From positions 868,001 to 932,000 of the forward strand of contig NZ_JACCAC010000001.1 of assembly GCF_013409425.1 (NCBI RefSeq): DNA of 64,000 bases. Direction: 5' to 3'. Both the position numbers and the translations under genes were made by a program. Shown here one piece after another: positions 30,233 to 46,270 of this stretch; the first letter of the stretch is position 1; each line of letters opens with the position of its first letter. The stretch comes from Nocardioides perillae (GTDB lineage Bacteria; Actinomycetota; Actinomycetes; Propionibacteriales; Nocardioidaceae). The notes below the pieces were generated by a model, which was not told where the DNA came from, searched no databases, and was given only the letters and a program-made list of their open reading frames with translations.

Positions 30233-32776
30233 GTGCCCGTGCCCGAGCCCGTGCCCGAGACCACGTCCGAGCCGCACCGGGCGGCGGCAGGGGCGGCCGG
30301 GTCCTGGCCCGCGGCGCTGCCCCGGCGGCTGCCGGGGCTGCTCGTCGCCGGCACCACCTCCGACGCCGGCAAGACCGTGGTGACGACCGGGCTGTGCCGC
30401 GCGCTGGTGCGCCGCGGGGTGCGAGTTGCGCCCTTCAAGGCGCAGAACATGTCGAACAACTCGATGGTCTGCGCCGACCCCGCGCGCCCCGGCGTCGGGG
30501 CCGAGGTCGGGCGCGCGCAGTGGGTGCAGGCGCGGGCCGCCCGCGTCGAGCCGGAGCCGGCGATGAACCCCGTGCTCCTCAAGCCCGGAGGCGACCGCGC
30601 GAGCCACGTGGTCGTGATGGGCCACCCCGGAGGCACGGTGTCGAGCAGCGACTGGGCGACCGGGCGCCGCCACCTGCGCGACGCCGCCTTCGCCGCGCTC
30701 GAGGACCTCGCCTCGCGCCACGACGTCGTCGTCGCCGAGGGCGCCGGGTCGCCGACCGAGATCAACCTGCGCCGCAGCGACTACGTCAACATGGGCCTGG
30801 CCCGGCACGCCGGGCTCCCGACGGTGGTGGTCGGCGACGTCGACCGCGGCGGCGTCCTCGCGGCCTTCCACGGCACGGTCGCGCTGCTCGAGGCTGCCGA
30901 CCAGGCACTGGTGGCCGGCTTCGTGGTCAACAAGTTCCGCGGCGACGCGTCGCTGCTGGCCCCCGGCACGGCGGAGCTCGCCCGCCTCACCGGCCGCCCG
31001 ACGTACGGCGTGCTGCCCTGGCACCCGGGGCTGTGGCTCGACAGCGAGGACGCGCTCGACCTCGAGGGGCGCCGCTCGCGCGACCCCCACGGCGAGGCGC
31101 TGCGGGTGGCGGTGGTGAGGCTGCCGCGCATCTCGAACTTCACCGACGTCGACGCGCTCGGGCTCGAGCCGGGGGTCGACGTCACCTTCGTCTCCGACCC
31201 CCGCGGGCTGCGCGGCGCCGACCTCGTGGTGCTGCCCGGCACCCGCGCGACCGTCGCCGACCTGGCGTGGCTGCGCGAGCGGGGGCTCGACGAGGCGGTG
31301 CGCGCGCACGCCGCCGCGGGCCGCCCGGTGCTCGGCATCTGCGGCGGCTTCCAGCTGCTGGGCCGGGAGGTGCGCGACCCGGTCGGCGTCGAGGGCGCCC
31401 CCGGCACGGTCGTCCCCGGGCTCGGGCTGCTCGACGTGGTCACCGACTTCGCAGCCGACAAGGTGCTGCGGCTCCCGCGGGGATCGGCGCTGGGGCAGCA
31501 GGTGACGGGTTACGAGATCCACCACGGCCGCGTCACCCGCGGCGAGGGTGCCGAGGAGTTCCTCGGCGGGGCGCGCGCGGGCTCGGTCTGCGGCACGCTG
31601 TGGCACGGGTCGTTGGAGTCCGACGGGTTCCGCGAGGCGTTCCTGGCCTGGGCCGCTGCCGCCGCCGGCGCGGCGTACGTCCCGGGTGGGGTGCGCTTCG
31701 AGGCGGCCCGCGAGGCCCGGCTCGACCTGCTCGGCGACCTGGTCGAGGAGCACCTCGACGTCGACGCGCTGCTCGACCTCGCGCTGTCCGGTGCGCCGGC
31801 GGGATTGCCGCTGCTCGAGCCGGGGGCCTCGCGCGGGTCGGCTCGCGGTGGTGCGTCATGCGATCCGTGCGCAGTGGCGTCGGGACCGCATGACGCAACG
31901 GGAGGCGCGGGTGGCGGCTCCGGTGGTGTGTCATGCGATCCGCGCGCAGTGGCGTCGGGACCGCATGACGCAACGGGAGGCGCGGGCGGCGGGCGAGCAC
32001 GGCAGGGCCGGGCGCCGCGGGTGCTCGTGCTGGGCGGGACGGGCGAGGCGCGCGAGCTCGCCCGGCAGCTGGTGGACGACGGCGTCGACGTGGTCTCCTC
32101 CCTCGCCGGGCGGGTGGCTCGCCCGCGGTTGCCGGTCGGCGACGTGCGGCTGGGTGGGTTCGGGGGCGTCGAGGGGCTGCGCGCGCACCTGCGGGAGGAG
32201 GCGTACGCCGGCGTCGTCGACGCCACCCACCCCTTCGCCGCGGGCATCACCGAGCACGCGGCCCGCGCCTGCGCCGAGGAGGGCGTGGCGCTGCTGCGGC
32301 TCGCGCGGCCGGGGTGGCGGGAGGAGCCGGGCGCCGCGCGCTGGCACTGGGTCGACGACCACGACGAGGCCGCCGCGGCGGCCGCCCGGCTCGGGCGACG
32401 GCCGCTGCTGACCATCGGTCGCCAGTCGCTCGCCCGCTTCGTCGAGCCGCTGCGCGACCACGACGTGCTCGCCCGGGTCGTCGACCCGCCCGAGGGCGAG
32501 CTGCCCCGCGGGTGGCGGCTGCTGCTGGACCGGGGCCCCTACACCCGCGACGGCGAGCGCGGGCTGCTGCTCGGCCACGGTGCCGACGTGCTGGTCACCA
32601 AGGACTCCGGCGGCGACCACACCCGCGCCAAGCTCGACGCGGCCGACGAGCTGGGGATCGGGGTGGTCGTGGTCCGCCGTCCCACCGACCCGACCGGTGT
32701 GCGCTGCGTCCCTGACGTCGCCGCCGCGCGGGAGTGGGTGCTGACGGTGCTGCAGGAGTCACCGGTCGACCGGTGA
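30233..32776 (+). CDS. cobQ-cobK: fused cobyric acid synthase (CobQ) - precorrin-6A reductase (CobK)
   Basis: An 847-aa fusion. Residues about 30-530 are CobQ: P-loop-like [28 protein letters not shown], and a type-1 glutamine amidotransferase with nucleophile Cys370 in [11 protein letters not shown] and a His in [12 protein letters not shown]. It amidates adenosylcobyrinate a,c-diamide to cobyric acid. Residues about 594-847 are CobK ([49 protein letters not shown]), which reduces precorrin-6A. The linker (540-590) is two copies of a 25-residue unit built on a palindrome. The last residues, ESPVDR-stop, come from a family-1 palindromic element. Start GTG 30233 follows GAAGGAG. Confidence 0.95.
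31852..31897 (+). repeat. family-3 palindromic element, copy 1 (coding, cobQ-cobK linker)
   Basis: TGCGTCATGCG...CGCATGACGCA, 46 nt, read in frame as [15 protein letters not shown]. Same peptide family as in the chlI-chlD gene on the opposite strand. Confidence 0.9.
31927..31972 (+). repeat. family-3 palindromic element, copy 2 (tandem duplicate)
   Basis: Lies 75 nt after copy 1, read as [15 protein letters not shown]. The surrounding 75-nt unit (25 codons, including the ATGGAGGG tail) is duplicated. Confidence 0.9.
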
Positions 32777-32842
32777 CTCCTGCACCTGTGCCCCGAGTCC
32801 TCGGCCCCCCAGTGCCGGAGTCACCGGCTGACCGGTGACTCC
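32755..32842. repeat. family-1 palindromic element, copy B (H2-H1-H2)
   Basis: A perfect 26-nt H2 palindrome at 32755-32780, a degenerate H1 (32779-32818) and a second H2 at 32817-32842. The element spans the convergent ends of cobQ-cobK and cobD. The first H2 supplies the TGA of cobK and the second, read on the minus strand, supplies the TGA of cobD. Also a plausible bidirectional terminator. Confidence 0.9.
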
Positions 32843-33789
32843 GACGACCGGCCTCGGCGCGCAGCCAGCGCGGCGCAGGCCAGCCCCGCGGCGACCTGGA
32901 CGCGCGTGGAGAGCGCGACCGCGCGGCGTACGTCATGGGCGCCCGGCGCCGGGCCGGCGCCGAGCAGCGGGCGGTGCTGGGTGCCGTAGGGGTAGGGCGT
33001 CTCGCCGCCGAGCGCGACCCCGAGCGCCCCGGCGAAGGCCGCCTCGACCACGCCGGCGTTGGGGCTGGGGTGCGCGGCCGCGTCGCGGCGCCAGGCAGCG
33101 AGCGCTGCCCGAGGGCGGCCGCCGACGGTGGGCGCGAGGCCGGCGGCGAGCGCCCCGGTCAGGCGCGAGGCCGGCAGGTTCAGCAGGTCGTCGAGGCGGG
33201 CCGAGGCACGCCCGAAGCGGTCGTGGCGCGGCGAGCGGTGGCCGACCATGGCGTCGAGGGTGTTGGCGGCGCGGTAGCCGAGCAGGCCGGGCACGCCCGC
33301 GACCGCCCCCCACAGCAGCGGCGCGACGGCCGCGTCGGCGGTGTTCTCCGCGGCGGACTCCACCGCGGCCCGGGCGACGCCCGCCTCGTCGAGCGCCGTG
33401 GTCGACCGGCCCACGATCCGTCCGACCTGGGCGCGCGCGGCCGGGAGGTCGCCCACCTCGAGGAAGCCCTCCACCGCGGCCGCCTCGCGGCCCAGGGTCG
33501 TGCCGCCGAGCACCACCCAGGTCGCGACCGCCGTGGCGGCCGCGTGGGTCACCGGGTGGCGTGCGGTGGCGCGCTCGACCGCGACCCCGGCCAGCGCGGT
33601 GCCCCCCGTGAGCACGAGCGCGTGGCCGAGGCCGCGGAGCACCGAGTCGGCCCACCAGCGGCGCTCGAGCGCCGCCGCGAGCCGGCCGAAGGCGGCCACC
33701 GGGTGGCCGCGCTCGGGGTCGCCGAGCCACCGGTCGGCGGCGAGGCCGAGCAGCAGTCCGGCCGCACGCGACCGGTCCGGGCTCAGCAG
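32821..33789 (-). CDS. cobD: adenosylcobinamide-phosphate synthase CobD/CbiB
   Basis: About 322 aa. Motifs: GLLLGLAADRWLGDPERGHP at the N-terminus, VGRDTS-like VGRSTTALDEAGVARAAVES plus AENTADAAVAPLLWGAVAG, YRAANTLDAMVGHRS, and HPSPNAGVVEAAFAGALGV. Membrane protein joining (R)-1-aminopropan-2-ol phosphate to cobyric acid. No ATG/GTG/TTG start exists in frame between the cbtA overlap and the conserved N-terminus; CTG at 33789 or 33786 are the only nearby choices, so the start is unresolved. It follows cbtA by a few bases. The C-terminus SSESPVSR-stop derives from palindromic element B. Confidence 0.9.
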   Translation of the reverse strand: MLSPDRSRAAGLLLGLAADRWLGDPERGHPVAAFGRLAAALERRWWADSVLRGLGHALVLTGGTALAGVAVERATARHPVTHAAATAVATWVVLGGTTLGREAAAVEGFLEVGDLPAARAQVGRIVGRSTTALDEAGVARAAVESAAENTADAAVAPLLWGAVAGVPGLLGYRAANTLDAMVGHRSPRHDRFGRASARLDDLLNLPASRLTGALAAGLAPTVGGRPRAALAAWRRDAAAHPSPNAGVVEAAFAGALGVALGGETPYPYGTQHRPLLGAGPAPGAHDVRRAVALSTRVQVAAGLACAALAARRGRSSESPVSR

Positions 33790-33793
33790 GCCC

Positions 33794-34519
33794 TCACAGC
33801 GACGCCGCGAGCGCGCGTCGCTCCGCCGCGGCGACCTCGCCCGCCCACGACCGCCCGACCAGCCCCGACAGCGCCGCCGCGAGCGCGACCCACAGCGTCG
33901 CCAGCGTGGCCAGCGAGCCGACCCGGAAGTCCCACAGCAGGTCGGCCGGGAAGCCGCCCACGCCGGCCGCGTCGGGCAGCAGCTGGGCGACGACGGCGAC
34001 CACCACGACGTACGCCGTGGCAGGCGCGACCACCGCCGCCCACGCGCCGCTCCGCTCGAGGAGGCGACGGCCGAGCCACAGCGCGAGGCCGGCCGCGACC
34101 ACGGAGGCGAGCACGAGGGCGAAGTAGCCGGCGGTGCGACCGCCGATGGTCGCGCCGTCACCGACGGCCGGCGGCGTGGCGGGGTACTTCAGGAACGGCA
34201 CGAGCGAGACGGCCACGCCCCCCACCGCGGTCACCAGGGCGGTGGAGGCGGCGGGGGAGAGCCGGCCGAGCCGACCCACGGCGGCGGCCGAGGCGAGCGC
34301 CGCCAGGCCGCCGAGCGCCAGCCCGATCGCGAGGGTGCCGACGAGCAGGCCGACGGTGCGCTGCACGGTGCGCGGCACCGGGCCGTCGCCAGCCGGGCCC
34401 TCGAGGGCGATGGCTGCGTCCACGGACGGCTCGCCCACGGCGTACGCGACGCCGCAGGCGAGCAGGCCGGCCATAAGGCCGGCGAGGAGTCCGTGGACCA
34501 GGAAGGTCCGCGGGGTCAC
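33794..34519 (-). CDS. cbtA: cobalt transporter subunit CbtA
   Basis: A 241-aa integral membrane protein with about six helices; GTG 34519 starts VTPRTFLVHGLLAGLMAGLL. The motifs FLKYPATPPAVGD and LLWDFRVGSLATLATLW are typical of CbtA, the probable cobalt-uptake permease found with CbtB under cobalamin riboswitches. One nucleotide separates it from cbtB. Role in cobalt uptake is from family knowledge. Confidence 0.9.
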   Translation of the reverse strand: MTPRTFLVHGLLAGLMAGLLACGVAYAVGEPSVDAAIALEGPAGDGPVPRTVQRTVGLLVGTLAIGLALGGLAALASAAAVGRLGRLSPAASTALVTAVGGVAVSLVPFLKYPATPPAVGDGATIGGRTAGYFALVLASVVAAGLALWLGRRLLERSGAWAAVVAPATAYVVVVAVVAQLLPDAAGVGGFPADLLWDFRVGSLATLATLWVALAAALSGLVGRSWAGEVAAAERRALAASL

Positions 34520-34520
34520 C

Positions 34521-34742
34521 TCAGTGGCAGGGGTAGCCGAGGAGGTGGCGCCCGTCGTGCACCAGCTCGTGGAGCACGGTGCCGCCGGGGAAGGCGACCG
34601 CACCCTGCGCGGTGGAGACGAAGAAGACCACGAGCTGGGCCAGCAGCCCGGCGAAGAGGAGCCAGGGCCCCAGCTGCGCGAACGAGATCGTGGGGACGGC
34701 CGGCAGTGCCGGGGCCGAGAGGGCAGGGGTCGCCTGCGACAT
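34521..34742 (-). CDS. cbtB: cobalt transporter subunit CbtB
   Basis: A 73-aa protein with one membrane helix (LGPWLLFAGLLAQLVVFFVS) and a C-terminal His-rich metal site, HELVHDGRHLLGYPCH, typical of CbtB. ATG 34742 has the ribosome site AAGGAGG 5 nt upstream. First gene after a cobalamin riboswitch; operon cbtB-cbtA-cobD. Confidence 0.93.
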   Translation of the reverse strand: MSQATPALSAPALPAVPTISFAQLGPWLLFAGLLAQLVVFFVSTAQGAVAFPGGTVLHELVHDGRHLLGYPCH

Positions 34743-34794
34743 GGTGCCTCCTTCAGGGATGACTGCGTCCCTGGTCGATGGGTGGAGTTCGCGG

Positions 34795-34893
34795 GCGCTC
34801 GGGTCTGACTCCACCGCTCGCGGCCGGGGCCGGAGGCGGTGTCACAGTAGCGCGACTGTGCCGGATTCCCACCGGCTTCCTCGTGCTCGCAGG
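34795..34893 (-). promoter_or_regulatory. cobalamin riboswitch upstream of cbtB
   Basis: On the minus strand: GAAGCCGGTGGGAATCCGGC (core), then ACAGTCGCGCTACTGTGACA and, near the 3' end, GGAGTCAGACCC. It has the shape of the short actinobacterial AdoCbl riboswitch. Expected to shut off cobalt uptake and cobD when cobalamin is plentiful. Confidence 0.88.
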
Positions 34894-34896
34894 AGC

Positions 34897-34902
34897 ACCC
34901 TA
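34897..34902 (-). promoter_or_regulatory. -10 box (TAGGGT) of the cbtB riboswitch transcript
   Basis: TAGGGT on the minus strand just upstream of the riboswitch. Its first three bases are the TAG stop codon of the cbiA-cobC gene (34900-34902). Confidence 0.55.
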
Positions 34903-37581
34903 GGGCACGGGGCCGCCGGGTGGGGTGAGCCGTCCCACGAGCGGCGCCAGGGCGGCCGCCAGGGCGTCGCTGACGGCCGGCTCGCGCGCGGCCACCCGCA
35001 CCCACGCGCCGTCCAGGCCCGGGAAGGTGTCCGCCCGCCGACAGGCGAAGCCGGCCTCGCGCAGCGCGGCGTGGACGCCGTGGCCGACCCGGGCGAGGAC
35101 GTACGGCGCGGCGCCCGGCACGACGTCCGCGCCGGCCCGCTGCAGGGCGAGGGCGAGGTGGTCGCGGTGCTGCTGTGCCAGCGCGGCGCGGCGGTCGCGC
35201 TCGGCCCTGGCCTGCGGCGTGCTGCAGGCGATCGCCGCGGCTGCGGCGAGGCTGGAGACCGACCACGGGGCCTGCGCGCGGGCCAGTGCCGCGACCAGGT
35301 CGGGCGGGCCGAGCAGGTGGCCCACCCGCACGCCGGGGAGCGCCCACAGCTTCGTCAGGCTGCGGACGACGACGACGCCGGGGAGCCGCGCGGCGGCCAG
35401 CGACTCCGGCTCGCCGGGCACGTGGTCGGCGAAGGCCTCGTCGACGACCAGCAGCCGGCCCGGGCGCACGAGGGCGCGGAGGGTGGCCGCGGGGTGGAGC
35501 ACGCCGGTGGGGTTGGTGGGGTTGCCGACGACCACGAGGTCGGCGTCCTCCGGGACCCGTCGGTGGTCGAGGGTGAACCCGTCTCCCGCGCGCAGGACGG
35601 CGTGCTCGGCGACCAGGCCCGCCTCGGCCAGCGCCACGTCGGGCTCGGTGAACTGCGGGTGCACCACCACCGGCCGCCGCCAGGGCCTGCCGCCGGGGCG
35701 ATGGCGGGCGAGCAGGCCGAAGGCCTCGGCCGCACCGGCGGTCACCAGAACCTCCTCGGGGTCGCGGCCGTGGTGGGCCGCGAGCGCTGCCCGGGCCGTC
35801 GTCGGGTCGGGGTAGGCCGTCGCCGCCTCCAGCCCCGTGAGCAGCGCCTCGCGCAGCCACGGCGGCCACGGCTCCCGGCTGACGTTGACCGCCAGGTCGA
35901 CCAGCCCGGGTGCGGTCTCCGCGTCGCCGTGGTGGCGCAGCGGGTCGGAGTGCGGGTCGGCCGGCGCGGTGCCGGGGCTGCCGGTTTCCCCGGCTGGCGC
36001 GCTGTCGGAGTCCCCTGTCGGCGCGCTGTCGGAGTCACCGGTCGACCGGGGACTCCTGCACTTGTGGCCCGAGAACTCGGCCGACAAGTGCGGGACTTGG
36101 GCCACAAGTGGGGCTGGTGGGACTGCGGTGACCAACCGCCCGGCCCCCGGAGCAGCGGCGCGCGCGTGCACCGCGTCGGCGAAGCGCTGCGCGAGCTGCG
36201 GGTGGCCGGCCCAGTGGACGTGGGGGTAGGCCGCGTGCAGCGTCGGCCCCGCCCAGCCCACCGGGCGCGGGCCGTCGGGACCGGGAGCGAGCCACGCGGG
36301 CCCGAGCGCGGAGCCGGCCGCCGGCGCCTCGGGCGTGCACGCGGTGCGGTGGAACTCGTGGGCCGTGACGACCTCGCCGGCCCGGGTGAGCAGGGAGTCG
36401 CCCGCGGCCTCGAGGGCGTCGTACGCTAGCGTCAGGCGCGAGCCCATGGCCGCGCGGGCCGGCACGGCGCCCGCCATGGGGCGCTCGTCGAGGGTCTCGG
36501 CGAGGTAGAGCAGTCCCGCGCACTCCGCGACCGTCGGCACGCCGGCCGCGACCGCGTCGGCGATGGCGGCGCGCAGGGTCGCGTTGTCGGTGAGCGCGTC
36601 GGCGTGCACCTCGGGGAAGCCGCCGCCCAGGTAGAGCCCGGCCGTCCCGGCCGGCAAGGCCGTGTCGCTCGCGGGGTCGAAGGCCACCGGCTCGCACCCC
36701 GCCGCCCGCAGCAGCTCCTCGGTCTCGGCGTAGCGGAAGGTGAAGGCCCGCCCACCCGCCACGGCGACGACCGGCGCCGACCCGCGCCGTACGCCGTGCT
36801 CCGGCGCCCGCACCTCGGCCGCGGCCGCCCACGGCGCGGCGTCGAGGTCGGGTGCCGTGCGGGCCAGGTCGAGGACGGTGTCGAGGTCGACGTGCGCGGC
36901 GACGAGGTCGGCCAGCGCCTCGAGCGCCGCCGCCGACTCGGCCCGCTCGGCCACCGGCACGAGGCCCAGGTGCCGGCTCGGGGCGCTCACCCGCTCGTCG
37001 CGGGGCAGCACCCCCACGACGGGCACGCCGCGGCCGGAGGGTCCGCCGGTGCGCACGGCCTCGGCGATCTCCCGGGTGTTGCGGTCCGACCCGGCGCCGT
37101 TGAGCACCACGCCGGCGACGGTGACCGCCGGGTCCCAGGTGGCCAGGCCGTGCACGAGGGCCGCGACCGTGCGCGAGGAGCGGCCGACGTCGACCACCAG
37201 CAGCACCGGCGAGCGCGTCACCGCCGCGACGTGGGCGGTGGAGGCGAGGCCGCCGGTGCCGAGCCGGCCGTCGAAGAGGCCCATCACGCCCTCGACGACC
37301 GCGACGTCGGCGGCGGGGCGCGCCGGGTGCGCGAGCGGGCCGGCGCCGTGCAGCAGCAGGGGGACCAGCCGCTCCTCGCCCACCAGGTGCGGGTCGAGGT
37401 TGCGTCCGGGACGGCCGGTGGCCAGCGCGTGGTAGCCCGGGTCGATGTAGTCCGGCCCGACCTTGTGCCCGCTCACCTCGAGCCCGCGCCGGCGCAGCGC
37501 CGCCATCAGGCCGGTCGCGACGGTGGTCTTGCCCGAGCCGGTCGAGGGGGCGGCGACCACGACGCGGGGCAGCGCTACCAC
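34900..37581 (-). CDS. cobB-cobC: fused cobyrinate a,c-diamide synthase (CobB/CbiA) - CobC aminotransferase-like protein
   Basis: An 893-aa fusion. Residues 1-465 are CobB/CbiA: P-loop VAAPSTGSGKTTVATGL, GHKVGPDYIDPGYH, VEGVMGLFDG, and a glutaminase with nucleophile Cys354 in AECAGLLYLAETL and HEFHRT near the end. It amidates the a and c side chains of hydrogenobyrinate. Residues about 540-893 are a class-I/II PLP fold like CobC/HisC (NVSREPWPP, NPTNPTGVLHP, VVDEAFADHVPG, RSLTKLWALPGVRVG with the PLP Lys), in the aminopropanol arm. The linker (about 491-519) is translated palindromic element C (HKCRSPRSTGDSDSAPTGDS). GTG 37581 overlaps the cobO stop. Confidence 0.93.
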   Translation of the reverse strand: MVALPRVVVAAPSTGSGKTTVATGLMAALRRRGLEVSGHKVGPDYIDPGYHALATGRPGRNLDPHLVGEERLVPLLLHGAGPLAHPARPAADVAVVEGVMGLFDGRLGTGGLASTAHVAAVTRSPVLLVVDVGRSSRTVAALVHGLATWDPAVTVAGVVLNGAGSDRNTREIAEAVRTGGPSGRGVPVVGVLPRDERVSAPSRHLGLVPVAERAESAAALEALADLVAAHVDLDTVLDLARTAPDLDAAPWAAAAEVRAPEHGVRRGSAPVVAVAGGRAFTFRYAETEELLRAAGCEPVAFDPASDTALPAGTAGLYLGGGFPEVHADALTDNATLRAAIADAVAAGVPTVAECAGLLYLAETLDERPMAGAVPARAAMGSRLTLAYDALEAAGDSLLTRAGEVVTAHEFHRTACTPEAPAAGSALGPAWLAPGPDGPRPVGWAGPTLHAAYPHVHWAGHPQLAQRFADAVHARAAAPGAGRLVTAVPPAPLVAQVPHLSAEFSGHKCRSPRSTGDSDSAPTGDSDSAPAGETGSPGTAPADPHSDPLRHHGDAETAPGLVDLAVNVSREPWPPWLREALLTGLEAATAYPDPTTARAALAAHHGRDPEEVLVTAGAAEAFGLLARHRPGGRPWRRPVVVHPQFTEPDVALAEAGLVAEHAVLRAGDGFTLDHRRVPEDADLVVVGNPTNPTGVLHPAATLRALVRPGRLLVVDEAFADHVPGEPESLAAARLPGVVVVRSLTKLWALPGVRVGHLLGPPDLVAALARAQAPWSVSSLAAAAAIACSTPQARAERDRRAALAQQHRDHLALALQRAGADVVPGAAPYVLARVGHGVHAALREAGFACRRADTFPGLDGAWVRVAAREPAVSDALAAALAPLVGRLTPPGGPVP
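36026..36112 (-). repeat. family-1 palindromic element, copy C (coding, in frame)
   Basis: Reverse orientation. H2 at 36031-36056 and H1 at 36055-36094 (AA loop), followed by the half-H1 copy. An additional 24-nt partial duplication (GCGCGCTGTCGGAGTC) occurs at 35998-36021. It lies exactly between the CbiA and CobC domains and stays open in the gene's frame. Confidence 0.9.
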
Positions 37582-38189
37582 TCGATGCCCCGCTGGCCCT
37601 TCTGGCCGCGGTCCATCTGGTGCTTCACCTTGGTCATGTCGGTGACCAGGTCGGCCGCGTCGACCAGCGCGGGGTGGGCGCGGCGCCCGGTCACCACGAC
37701 GTACTGCCGCCCGGGGCGCTCGCGCAGCGTGGCCACGACGTCGTCGACGTCGACCCAGCCCCACGCCATCGGGTAGGTGAACTCGTCGAGCACGTAGAGG
37801 TCGTGGCGCTCCTCGGCGAGGCGCCGCTTGACCTCGGCCCACCCCTCGGCGGCGTCGCGCGCGTGGTCGGCCTCGGAGCCCTCCTTGCGCGACCACGACC
37901 AGCCGGCGCCCATCTTGTGCCACTCGACCGGCCCGCCCTCGCCGGTCTCGCGGTGCAGCTCGCCGAGCCGCTCGAGCACGGTCTGCTCGCCGATGCGCCA
38001 CTTGGCGGACTTCACGAACTGGAAGACCCCGACGTCCCACCCCTGGTTCCACGCCCGGATCGCCAGGCCGAAGGCGGCGGTCGACTTCCCCTTGCCGTCG
38101 CCGGTGTGCACCATCAGCAGCGGCTGCTCGCGGCGCTGCCGGGTGGTGAGCCCGTCGTCGGGCACGCTCAGCGGCTGTCCCTGCGGCAT
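37575..38189 (-). CDS. cobO: cob(I)yrinic acid a,c-diamide adenosyltransferase
   Basis: A 204-aa CobO/BtuR: P-loop VHTGDGKGKSTAAFGLAIRA, FQFVKSAKW, VLDEFTYPMAWGWVD and VVTGRRAHPALVDAADLVTD. Transfers the 5'-deoxyadenosyl group from ATP to Co(I). ATG 38189 overlaps the chlI-chlD stop (TGATG), and its own stop overlaps the next start. Second gene in the riboswitch operon headed by chlI-chlD. Confidence 0.96.
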   Translation of the reverse strand: MPQGQPLSVPDDGLTTRQRREQPLLMVHTGDGKGKSTAAFGLAIRAWNQGWDVGVFQFVKSAKWRIGEQTVLERLGELHRETGEGGPVEWHKMGAGWSWSRKEGSEADHARDAAEGWAEVKRRLAEERHDLYVLDEFTYPMAWGWVDVDDVVATLRERPGRQYVVVTGRRAHPALVDAADLVTDMTKVKHQMDRGQKGQRGIEW

Positions 38190-40381
38190 CAGGCTGCTCC
38201 GTCGCGTCGGGTGGTGCGGTGGTCGGTGGCGGCGTGAGCACGCCGTGGCGCGGCGCCGCGCACCACGCCCGTGAGCGCGTCGGCGCTGACCTCCGCCACC
38301 GGCACGTGCTCGGCGCCGAGGTGGGCGGCGAGCCGGGCCGCGAGGCCCATCCGCAGCGGCCCGGCCTCGCAGTCGACGACGACCGAGGCGACCCGCTGCG
38401 CCGCCAGGTGGTCGGCGGCGGCACGGCTGCGGGCGACGGCGTCGGCGCCCTGGGTGGCGCGACCGTCGGTCACGACGACGAGGAGCGGGCGGCGGCGGGG
38501 GTCGCGCAGCCGCTCGAGCGCGAGCACGCGGTCGGCCTCGAGCAGCCCCTCGGCCAGCGGCGTCCGGCCCCCGGCCGGCAGCTCGGCGAGCCGCCGGGCC
38601 GCCACGTCGACCGAGCGCGTCGGCGGCAGGGCGGTCTCGGCACCGTCGGCGCGGAAGGTCACCAGCCCGACCCGGTCGCGTCGCTGGTAGGCGTCGAGCA
38701 GCAGCGACAGGATCGCGGTCTTGACCTGTTCCATCCGCCTGCGCGCCGCCATCGAGCCAGACGCGTCGACGCAGAAGAGCACGAGGTTGGACTCGCGGCC
38801 CTCCCGCTCGCTGACCCGCAGGTCGGCGGGCGCCAGGCGCAGCCGGCCCACCCCGGGCACCCGCCCGCGGGCACCCTGGTGCGGCGCCGCCGCGAGCACC
38901 GTGCCGACCAGGTGCAGGTCGGTGGCGCCTGCGCGCCCGCCCGGGTCGCGCTCGCCCGCCGGCCGCGACCCGGTGCGCCGCCCGCTCGCGGTCACCGCGC
39001 GGCTGCGCCGACCCGCCTCGCCCGCACCGGTCCCCGCCACGCGGAGCAACCGCGGACGGTACGGCGTGCCCGCGGCCGCGCTGCGCGGCGTACTGCCGGT
39101 GCCGGTGCCGGTGCCGGTGCCGGTGCCCGCGTCATGCGGACCGCTCGCGACTGCGTCGGAACCGCATGACGCTCCGCGACCGTCACCGCCCTCGTCGCCG
39201 GAGCCACCCGCGTCATGCGGAGCGCTCGCGACTGCGTCGGACCCGGATGACGCCTCGCCGGTGCCGTCACCACCGCCACCCGGAGCCGGATCGGGCGTCG
39301 GGTCGGGCGTCGGGTCGGGCGTCGGGTCGGGCGTCGGGTCGGGCTCGAGCTCCGCGTCACCGAGGACGGCGTCGAGGAGCTCCTCGTCGAGGCCGGGGGC
39401 GTCGAAGGGGGTGCGGCGGCGCCGGTGCGGCAGGGCGAGCAGGGCCGCGACGCGGACGTCCGCGCGGGTGACCGAGTCGCGTCCCTGCCAGGCGGCGTGG
39501 GCGACGGCGGCACGGGCGGTGACCAGGTCGGCGCGCAGGCCGTCGACGTCGAAGGCGGCGCACACCTCGGCCACCTTGCGCAGCGCGGCGTCGGACAGCT
39601 CGACCCGCGCGACCCGCTCGCGCGCCGCCGCGATGCGGGCGGTGAGGGCGGCCTCGGCCTCGGCCCACGAGGCGAGGAAGCTCTCGGGGTCGGCGTCGAA
39701 GGCCATCCGGCGGCGCACGACCTCGACCCGCAGCGCCGGGTCGCGGGGGGCTGCGACCTCGACCGTGAGCCCGAAGCGGTCGAGCAGCTGCGGGCGGAGC
39801 TCGCCCTCCTCGGGGTTCATCGTGCCGACGAGCACGAAGCGCGCGTCGTGCTCGACCGAGACGCCGTCGCGCTCCACGGTGGCGCGACCGGTGGCCGCGG
39901 CGTCGAGCAGCAGGTCGACGAGGTGGTCGTGGAGCAGGTTGACCTCGTCGACGTAGAGGACGCCGCGGTGCGCGCGGGCCAGCAACCCGGGCTCGTACTC
40001 GGCGCGGCCCTCGCTCAGCGCCTTCTCCAGGTGCAGCGAGCCCAGCAGCCGGTCCTCGGTGGCCCCGACGGGCAGCTCGACGAGGCGCACCGGTCGGGTC
40101 TCGACCGCGGGGGCCGGTCCGAAGGGGCCGTCGGGCGAGGTGGCCCGCGGGTCGTGCGGGTCGGAGGAGAAGCGGTCGCCCGCCACGACCTCGATCGGCG
40201 GCAGCACCGCGGCGAGGGCGCGGACGACGGTGGACTTCGCCGTGCCCTTCTCGCCGCGCACCAGCACGCCGCCGACGGCGGGCGAGACGGTGGTGAGGAC
40301 CAGGGCGAGCGCCATCCGGTCCGTGGGGTCGTCGTCGTGCCCGGAGGTCACGACGGCGCTGAAGGGGTAGTGCGCTGGCAC
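38189..40381 (-). CDS. ChlI-ChlD-like ATPase/VWA subunit of cobaltochelatase
   Basis: A 730-aa fusion of an AAA+ ATPase (residues 1-340) and a von Willebrand A domain (about 530-715). The ATPase shows VRGEKGTAKSTVVRALA, GVLYVDEVNLLHDH and LVGTMNPEEGELRPQLLDRF; the VWA has MIDAS DASGSMA and VTDGRATQG. The linker contains DPTP repeats, two family-3 palindromes (377-391 and 404-418) and a Gly-Thr run. It is the magnesium-chelatase-type partner for CobN where CobS/CobT are absent; that function is inferred from the cluster. GTG 40381 lies below a cobalamin riboswitch. Confidence 0.9.
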   Translation of the reverse strand: MPAHYPFSAVVTSGHDDDPTDRMALALVLTTVSPAVGGVLVRGEKGTAKSTVVRALAAVLPPIEVVAGDRFSSDPHDPRATSPDGPFGPAPAVETRPVRLVELPVGATEDRLLGSLHLEKALSEGRAEYEPGLLARAHRGVLYVDEVNLLHDHLVDLLLDAAATGRATVERDGVSVEHDARFVLVGTMNPEEGELRPQLLDRFGLTVEVAAPRDPALRVEVVRRRMAFDADPESFLASWAEAEAALTARIAAARERVARVELSDAALRKVAEVCAAFDVDGLRADLVTARAAVAHAAWQGRDSVTRADVRVAALLALPHRRRRTPFDAPGLDEELLDAVLGDAELEPDPTPDPTPDPTPDPTPDPAPGGGGDGTGEASSGSDAVASAPHDAGGSGDEGGDGRGASCGSDAVASGPHDAGTGTGTGTGTGSTPRSAAAGTPYRPRLLRVAGTGAGEAGRRSRAVTASGRRTGSRPAGERDPGGRAGATDLHLVGTVLAAAPHQGARGRVPGVGRLRLAPADLRVSEREGRESNLVLFCVDASGSMAARRRMEQVKTAILSLLLDAYQRRDRVGLVTFRADGAETALPPTRSVDVAARRLAELPAGGRTPLAEGLLEADRVLALERLRDPRRRPLLVVVTDGRATQGADAVARSRAAADHLAAQRVASVVVDCEAGPLRMGLAARLAAHLGAEHVPVAEVSADALTGVVRGAAPRRAHAATDHRTTRRDGAA
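39129..39172 (-). repeat. family-3 palindromic element, copy 3 (coding, chlI-chlD linker)
   Basis: GCGTCATGCGG...CCGCATGACGC, 44 nt, translated on the minus strand as [15 protein letters not shown], nearly the peptide encoded by copies 1 and 2. Confidence 0.9.
39210..39253 (-). repeat. family-3 palindromic element, copy 4 (coding, chlI-chlD linker)
   Basis: Lies 81 nt from copy 3 and reads ASSGSDAVASAPHDA. The right arm has one change (CCGGATGACGC), so this copy is slightly decayed. Confidence 0.85.
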
Positions 40382-40414: not shown

Positions 40415-40545
40415 GCCGCGAGGCCGGTCTTCGGACTCCCGCGGTCACGCCACCCGACCGCTGCGGGCAGCGGGGGGCACGTGCCGCGGTCACCGCAGCG
40501 GGCCTGTGCCGGACTCTCACCGGCTTCCCAGATTCTCCCGTCGGC
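40415..40545 (-). promoter_or_regulatory. cobalamin riboswitch upstream of chlI-chlD
   Basis: On the minus strand: GGGAAGCCGGTGAGAGTCCG, then CCCGCTGCGGTGACCGCGG and GGAGTCCGAAGACCGGCC, the classical AdoCbl riboswitch blocks in order. A TAGGTT -10 box lies at 40605-40610 (-). Controls chlI-chlD, cobO and cobB-cobC. Confidence 0.95.
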
Positions 40546-46119: not shown

Positions 46120-46270
46120 GCCGCGGGGCCAGCAGGTCTTCGGACTCGGGGTCATCCGGCACGGGGCGCCTTCCCAGGACGTCCTCTCGTCGGTCCCAGT
46201 GGCTCAGTGCCCCGCCCGTCGCCCACACCGCTGCGCGTCAGTCCCGGAGTCGCACCGGGTTCCCTGCCCC
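46120..46270 (-). promoter_or_regulatory. cobalamin riboswitch upstream of cobG-cobH
   Basis: On the minus strand: GGGAACCCGGTGCGACTCCG, then GACGCGCAGCGGTG and GAGTCCGAAGACCTGCTGGC. A TAGCCT -10 box lies at 46307-46312 (-). Controls cobG-cobH and cobI-cobJ. Confidence 0.95.

Follow-up and report, generated by a model that had tools for sequence, protein, structure and literature searches.

How two unrelated cobalamin genes, read from opposite strands, come to carry the same short palindromes within their reading frames is the question raised by a 64,000-nucleotide stretch of the Nocardioides perillae genome (the window; genome positions 868,001-932,000 of a single 3.61-Mb contig). One tandem pair, at 31852..31897 and 31927..31972 (75 bp apart), occupies the linker of a fused cobQ-cobK open reading frame (ORF; 30233..32776, + strand, 847 codons plus stop), at the junction of the two genes. 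The other, at 39128..39173 and 39209..39254 (81 bp apart), lies in the interdomain linker of a fused chlI-chlD chelatase ORF (38189..40381, - strand, 730 codons plus stop). All four copies are 46 bp long, have no assigned strand of their own and are in frame with their hosts, as a first, sequence-only reading of the window had stated. From comparison with other genomes we consider that the palindromes are probably dispersed double-stranded DNA sites of a protein that joins an AbiEi-like region to a DUF559 domain, that they spread in a manner resembling REPtrons, and that one pair fused cobQ to cobK.

The sites follow the design TGCGTCATGCG - N24 - CGCATGACGCA, with small variation, in which 11-bp inverted arms enclose a core of nearly fixed length. 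In the window the gapped pattern TCATGCG-N15..40-CGCATGA gave three matches against 0.01 expected, and the fourth copy has one mismatch. The four near-identical palindromes described earlier are therefore present as 46-bp copies, but only the outer 11 bp are consistently inverted, while the 6-nt inner arms are mostly unpaired. In column statistics for this genome, the outer W-GCGTCATGCG-g-W and the central RCGCRR|YYGCGY are conserved, and four bases are nearly neutral. At positions 8 and -4, A or T prevails in both arms although the two do not pair, which is consistent with protein contact.

Genome-wide searching, which had been proposed as the check on the first reading, found many further copies, so that the lack of copies elsewhere that would have counted against that reading does not apply. 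The strict gapped pattern occurred at 31 places against 1 for the reversed control, and a fixed-length pattern allowing up to one mismatch gave 43 matches against 0, of which 42 were accepted; the match at 1,824,236 was discarded because its inner sequence differs. A weight matrix (window plus 17 fetched stretches) added one degenerate copy, giving 43 copies in 21 clusters, four of which are single copies. According to a simple codon-usage gene call, 16 clusters are intergenic (7 convergent, 9 tandem and 0 divergent with respect to their neighbours) and five lie inside ORFs, namely cobQ-cobK, chlI-chlD, an ORF at 625,857, a KAAAD-repeat protein at 1,036,626 and, at 3,567,726, a protein with what we read as a FliK-like C-terminus. 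Judged by eye, all five in-gene clusters are hosted by low-complexity linkers or tails, and all five stay open. The first reading is thus supported in that the family is a dispersed actinobacterial one and in that its in-gene copies here occupy linkers or tails. It is not mainly a protein-inserting family, as intergenic clusters predominate here and few of those in relatives are in genes (2 of 57 copies in one set, 1 of 47 places in another). Simple repeats adjoin the palindromes in chlI-chlD and in the FliK-like ORF, and about 40 tandem KAAAD units are found near the in-gene pair of the KAAAD-repeat ORF (L033; genome 1036626-1038422, - strand). A similar GCGTACGCC..GGTCGCCGTCGG stretch precedes several copies (flanks of L027, L029, L034 and L039) and may belong to a longer unit.

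Whether such sites act as folded single strands or as duplex DNA was approached through base pairing. Pairing over the whole structure in this genome (76.2%) is below that of all 500 shuffles (mean 80.2%), and inner pairing is 0.49 against 0.57 in shuffled sequences, with 0 of 2,000 shuffles as low. A hairpin was initially favoured by 55 copies of other species that displayed strong covariation (0 of 500 shuffles), in a set found partly with a structured model and mixing species; the within-species test gave no such signal. Arm covariation was absent within species, and inner pairing did not exceed that of shuffles in any of the six groups tested: besides this genome, these are G049 (0.67 against 0.67), the zeae group (0.58 against 0.61), G141/G143 (0.67 against 0.75), G069 (0.48 against 0.52) and G224 (0.50 against 0.50; n=4, uninformative). 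The symmetric changes therefore distinguish species from one another and run through all the copies that a species has, the pattern to be expected of sites tracking one protein. Single RNA strands nevertheless fold well (z of -2.6 to -9.4 in 10 of 10 sequences), so that a hairpin is possible, yet selection for pairing was not seen.

This folding, together with 12 of 23 convergent places in relatives where both stop codons lie within 20 nt, speaks for the palindromes being conserved-sequence RNA hairpins at 3' ends or terminators that stop transcription in both directions. Such a role is improbable, since by eye no T-run typical of an intrinsic terminator directly follows the copies at any of the 21 clusters, loop and unpaired positions are conserved, within-species covariation is absent in the groups tested, tandem arrays are phased and some copies reside inside ORFs. 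At gathering thresholds, Rfam identified no family at the palindromes, its matches in seven sources being three cobalamin riboswitches and one tRNA.

The distances between tandem copies rise in steps of roughly one helical turn. Eighteen centre-to-centre distances in this genome gave a resultant of 0.83 at a period near 11 bp, and 34 distances in relatives a resultant of 0.86 at 10.75; for both sets, phasing as strong was found in 0 of 20,000 uniform or jittered sets. The test counts equal repeats in L032, L036, L259, L285 and L286 once, enters L080 (identical to L283) and L081 (identical to L275) once, and omits the values 103 and 121, which separate pairs in four-copy clusters here, and 164 in L275. 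Distances fall into groups of 50-52 (7 pairs), 62-65 (14), 72-76 (21), 85-86 (5) and 96-97 bp (2), which together hold 49 of 52 pairs; those of G049 are 73 and 74. A unit of 63-97 bp has been duplicated in tandem to give many of the pairs, and the quantised quantity is therefore the duplication length, for which either selection or the copying mechanism could be the cause.

Related palindromes are widespread among relatives. The strict motif occurred in 9 of 215 genomes in a genus-wide search, while a model made from the copies of this genome matched at least 86 of the 215 and a model of the other sequence type, with a different inner sequence, at least 159 (E up to 0.01); here at most 25-27 candidates per genome were scored, and some weak matches may represent other hairpins. 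Carriers known by name are, among others, Nocardioides sp. Root682, Root190 and Root240, N. zeae and Marmoricola sp. URHB0036. Gapped-pattern matches in 18 of 39 relatives mix true relatives with chance and were excluded from these counts. Copies in relatives are mostly near the 3' ends of genes: 23 of 57 copies are convergent, 26 tandem, 3 divergent, 3 at an edge and 2 inside genes, and 24 of 47 places are convergent, 16 tandem, 2 divergent, 4 at an edge and 1 inside a gene, the two sets sharing at least two loci.

Six of the 21 clusters have a counterpart of a different sequence type at the matching place in another species, a number that is a lower bound because a small part of most relatives was read. 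One place is behind an ABC ATPase gene and a second beyond the gene that follows it (both in G226 and G045); the others are beside a TetR-type gene (G045), behind a helicase gene (G224), behind a fatty-acid desaturase gene (G069) and in the chlI-chlD linker (G079). The pair behind the ABC ATPase gene has a spacing of 63 bp in both G226 and G045 but of 74 bp here, approximately one helical turn more. On inspection the candidate shared places L026/L166 and L040/L120 were dismissed, as were L028, L033 and L037, where the copy is beside another gene or on another side. Taken together, the arms, core length, phasing and shared places point to predicted double-stranded protein-binding sites rather than hairpins.

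Other observations were made on the copies of relatives. In G141 (L045/L063) and G143 (L231), one biotin-carboxylase-like gene common to both has a copy ~325 nt from its 3' end; the cluster of this genome lies in a different gene, ~2.3 kb downstream. A second palindrome subtype (TCATGCGGACGG...CCGTCCGCATGA-like) at L098:102-169 coexists with the GGTCGC type in G100, where its owner is perhaps another protein, and similar matches were found in G006, G019 and G021. tRNA genes, one identified by Rfam and one by reading the sequence, directly adjoin copies at L105:1501-1634 (G191) and L267:3441-3512, a possible target preference.

A candidate for the protein that would bind these sites is encoded at genome 1,056,754-1,057,623, where palindromes flank one gene on both sides, one upstream and one behind the stop codon. 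This partner gene is bracketed in 8 of the 8 genomes in which it was seen (this genome, G226, G045, G100, G161, G143, G141 and Marmoricola), in three different contexts. It lies between ABC ATPase and PHO4 transporter genes here and in G226 and G045, next to a fumarase-like gene in G100 and Marmoricola, and between YihY-like and tyrosine-phosphatase-like genes in G141, G161 and G143, the gene names of the last two contexts being our own reading. Sampling three genomes at even intervals (1.2 Mb in all) and 434 kb of G079 identified no close homologue without brackets.

A distant homologue (L267; 42% identity) is carried by MT837139.1, an unverified metagenome scaffold in a phage collection and the only phage record matched by the protein search. 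It lies between two copies of a different palindrome, (T)CGGTGATGCA - N24 - TGCATCACCG(A), the arms of which measure 11 bp in one copy and 10 bp in the other; the unpaired 4-nt step recurs here. A search of plasmids and viral contigs found no relative of the DUF559 protein, and a DNA search with the MT837139 locus returned, among the matches listed, only places covering at most 7% of it.

The partner protein appears to combine two regions. PADLOC AbiEi models matched at 1.1e-8 (residues 53-232 of 362), 2.4e-12 (24-205 of 327, G161) and 7.3e-9 (13-122 of 306, MT837139), while the Pfam AbiEi_4 match (0.0019) is below the cut-off. The DUF559 (PF04480) match of 3.4e-5 is above the cut-off here and in G100 and G161, and below it in G226 and MT837139. 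D210 and E221-x-D223 are invariant in an alignment of seven sequences, a pattern that we take to be that of a PD-(D/E)XK site. A Caulobacter protein with a DUF559 domain has been described as Vsr-like (PMC12907096). The protein diverges fast, being 57% identical between this genome and G226, where its two neighbours are 86% and 78% identical. The predicted structure of a partial homologue (241 residues, 3 sequences) had a mean pLDDT (predicted local distance difference test score) of 45 and was not used.

The sites resemble known AbiEi operators in geometry. The Streptococcus agalactiae AbiEi binds a perfect 11-bp repeat, TGTTGCTTTTA-N27-TAAAAGCAACA, in its own promoter (PMC3985639). This operator has been described as a pair of 23-bp inverted repeats separated by 3 bp, and Rv2827c binds a tandem of two such pairs (PMC7319586). 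Shared features are the 11-bp inverted arms (11-N24-11 here and about the same in L267, a spacer 3 bp shorter than the N27 of AbiEi), the 23-bp half-sites, the occurrence as a single pair or two tandem pairs, the position upstream of the gene and an AbiEi-like protein. In contrast to AbiEi operators, the Nocardioides sites number tens of copies genome-wide and the partner protein contains DUF559. No AbiEii nucleotidyltransferase toxin gene adjoins the partner gene in this genome, its neighbours being the ABC ATPase and the PHO4 transporter.

The dispersed copies recall instead the REPtron, in which repetitive extragenic palindromes (REPs) flank the gene of a RAYT tyrosine transposase; REPs are dispersed, change in sequence together with the gene and accumulate near rayt in four species (PMC2817692). 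The Nocardioides enzyme is AbiEi-like with DUF559 rather than Y1/HUH, and the 46-bp dyad lacks a GTAG head and a hairpin covarying within species, and forms helically phased arrays. These likenesses raise the alternative that the palindromes are selfish mobile hairpins, of the REP type or that of Rickettsia palindromic elements, moved as single-stranded DNA by a Y1/HUH transposase and without a role in binding proteins to duplex DNA. Their dispersal, palindromic form and position near gene 3' ends, the bracketed gene and the presence/absence difference at cobQ-cobK would all suit such elements. We nevertheless regard this as unlikely, considering that the Y1 (RAYT) transposase family PF01797 was not found in a search covering this genome (0 of 1), that the arms lack covariation within the species groups tested and pair below shuffles here, that mobile hairpins give no reason for a nearly fixed N24 or helical phasing, and that places common to several species oppose recent movement of those copies.

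Rickettsia palindromic elements, which the sequence-only reading cited as precedent, likewise remain open inside ORFs, where they add an in-frame peptide, and also occur in spacers (PMC10969869, PMC1950309). They are a poor precedent in size (~150 bp against 46 bp), and the Nocardioides copies, of which 5 of 21 clusters are in ORFs, also bracket a partner gene. CGTC-tagged REPs share a CGTC near the palindrome end, a location mostly behind genes and no reported dedicated transposase for the class, but their CGTC is an unpaired tag at one end whereas that of Nocardioides is paired at both (PMC3733652). The words Nocardioides and Actinobacteria each occur 0 times in the available text of that paper. 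Our literature search, which lay outside most subscription journals, found no description of the palindrome family, of the motif GACGTCATACG or of such a link between gene and sites, and, among the papers listed for DUF559, titles and the beginnings of abstracts mentioned no AbiEi-DUF559 protein. The palindromes would behave in some respects as an AbiEi operator does and in others as a REPtron does, and belong to neither class in its present definition.

The distribution of the clusters along the genome bears on which protein owns them. All 21 are within 826 kb of dnaA, at 505 kb (binomial 7e-8), which, along with the phasing, fixed length and shared places, would agree with sites of another, unlinked DNA-binding protein, such as a chromosome-organising factor, the DUF559 gene being a mere neighbour. 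The copies, however, centre better on the DUF559 gene: the mean cluster distance to it is 294 kb against 903 kb expected (0 of 200,000 random sets), or 325 kb for the 19 clusters that do not bracket it, against 441 kb to dnaA; no centre does better than one at 905 kb, for which the mean is 285 kb. The same gene is, in addition, bracketed in three contexts, with a distant homologue bracketed by a different palindrome, and seven places in G069, on a contig whose first gene is dnaA, extend as far as 1.96 of 2.10 Mb from dnaA. An unlinked owner therefore seems unlikely, and a site of the origin domain was dropped because the partner gene is the better centre and the seven G069 places know no such limit.

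Several observations weigh against ownership by the AbiEi-DUF559 protein. Bracketed loci entered the comparison through palindrome matches, so that the 8 of 8 is a selected figure and MT837139.1 alone is free of selection, with a homologue whose DUF559 score is weak (0.14). Two of the eight genes look damaged, that of G141 lacking the N-terminal part and that of Marmoricola being split over two frames. G079 carries copies with no close gene in the 434 kb read of its 3.99 Mb, where the one distant DUF559 gene (L219) is without palindromes. The copies of G100 show no centring on the gene (P 0.83 for 5 listed places), those of G045 a weak one (P 0.07 for 6 listed places), and those of G069 are spread as described. 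Single copies, too, occur (4 of 21 clusters here). Spacings of 70, 81 and 93 (3 of 52) fall outside the groups, that of 81 being the chlI-chlD pair of the window, and phasing could in part derive from inherited tandem-duplication lengths, values that share an ancestor not being fully independent of one another.

The two host genes of the window illustrate what the sites do to coding sequence. All four copies use the frame GCG TCA TGC, by which the TGA within CGCATGA is avoided. The common peptide originally claimed for both genes fits three of the four copies; the fourth, at 39209..39254, which reads EASSGSDAVASAPHDA, departs from that motif with the peptide ASSGSDAVASAPHDA. Among the five in-gene clusters of the genome, four use the ASC..PHDA frame and one (L028, 625,857) the RHA..RMT frame. 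Of 8 coding 5' arms, 4 have lost the cysteine codon that the fifth base of TCATGCG makes in the ASC frame, while that base is changed in 2 of 74 other arms (Fisher P 0.0006); the count omits the two L028 copies at 626,000, which use the other frame. This loss suggests that the peptide of coding copies is made, that cysteine is disfavoured and that the new peptide is under selection.

Comparing orthologues with and without the insert, also put forward in the first reading, gave a divided answer in G079. There, the cobQ stop codon TGA overlaps the cobK start codon ATG (ATGA), the two genes are separate and no palindrome is found at the junction, while in the present genome ~61 residues including the palindrome pair connect both genes in one ORF. 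From this one other species we infer that the pair was gained here rather than lost elsewhere, and that a single palindrome pair probably fused cobQ to cobK. The chlI-chlD orthologue of G079, by contrast, encodes a protein of 69% identity and has a palindrome pair in the same linker, the sole copy detected in the 434 kb read around that gene. Cobalamin riboswitches (RF00174) are located in the window at 40425-40530 (-), immediately upstream of chlI-chlD, and at 46134-46265 (-), and chlI-chlD of G079 likewise has one (L109:2637-2782).

How such a system might work can be outlined from the anatomy of the sites and the relationships of the protein. The protein, with its AbiEi-like DNA-binding region and its Vsr-like, PD-(D/E)XK nuclease domain of the DUF559 family, would bind the 46-bp sites, whose 11-bp inverted arms around N24 would represent two 23-bp half-sites. 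At its own gene, the upstream site would have the role that it has when AbiEi regulates itself, and protein molecules bound to tandem copies would meet because these share a face of the helix. Copies would have spread over time to other places, in this genome preferentially near the partner gene, an arrangement like that of the REPtron but with a different enzyme; nicking and repair synthesis at the site is our guess at how they are copied. Once placed, copies would be inheritable, drift in the specificity of the protein would shift all sites of that species together, and copies landing inside genes, or between genes without introducing a stop codon, would give linker peptides. Tentatively, then, and with some doubt, we propose a self-spreading system in which an AbiEi-type DNA-binding protein fused to a Vsr-like endonuclease may have its own operator as the mobile unit, phased double-stranded sites being copied mostly near the gene and co-evolving with the protein.

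If the sites are those of the AbiEi-DUF559 protein, a dispersed palindrome family would gain a cognate protein other than a tyrosine transposase, and that protein would gain a concrete role. Under the self-spreading reading, proteins of this kind could also own orphan palindrome families without a known transposase, such as the CGTC REPs. Sites that keep helical phase and change in concert constitute a readable record of protein-DNA co-evolution, and the cobQ-cobK case suggests how a brief stretch of DNA may join a pair of overlapping genes so that they encode a single fused protein.

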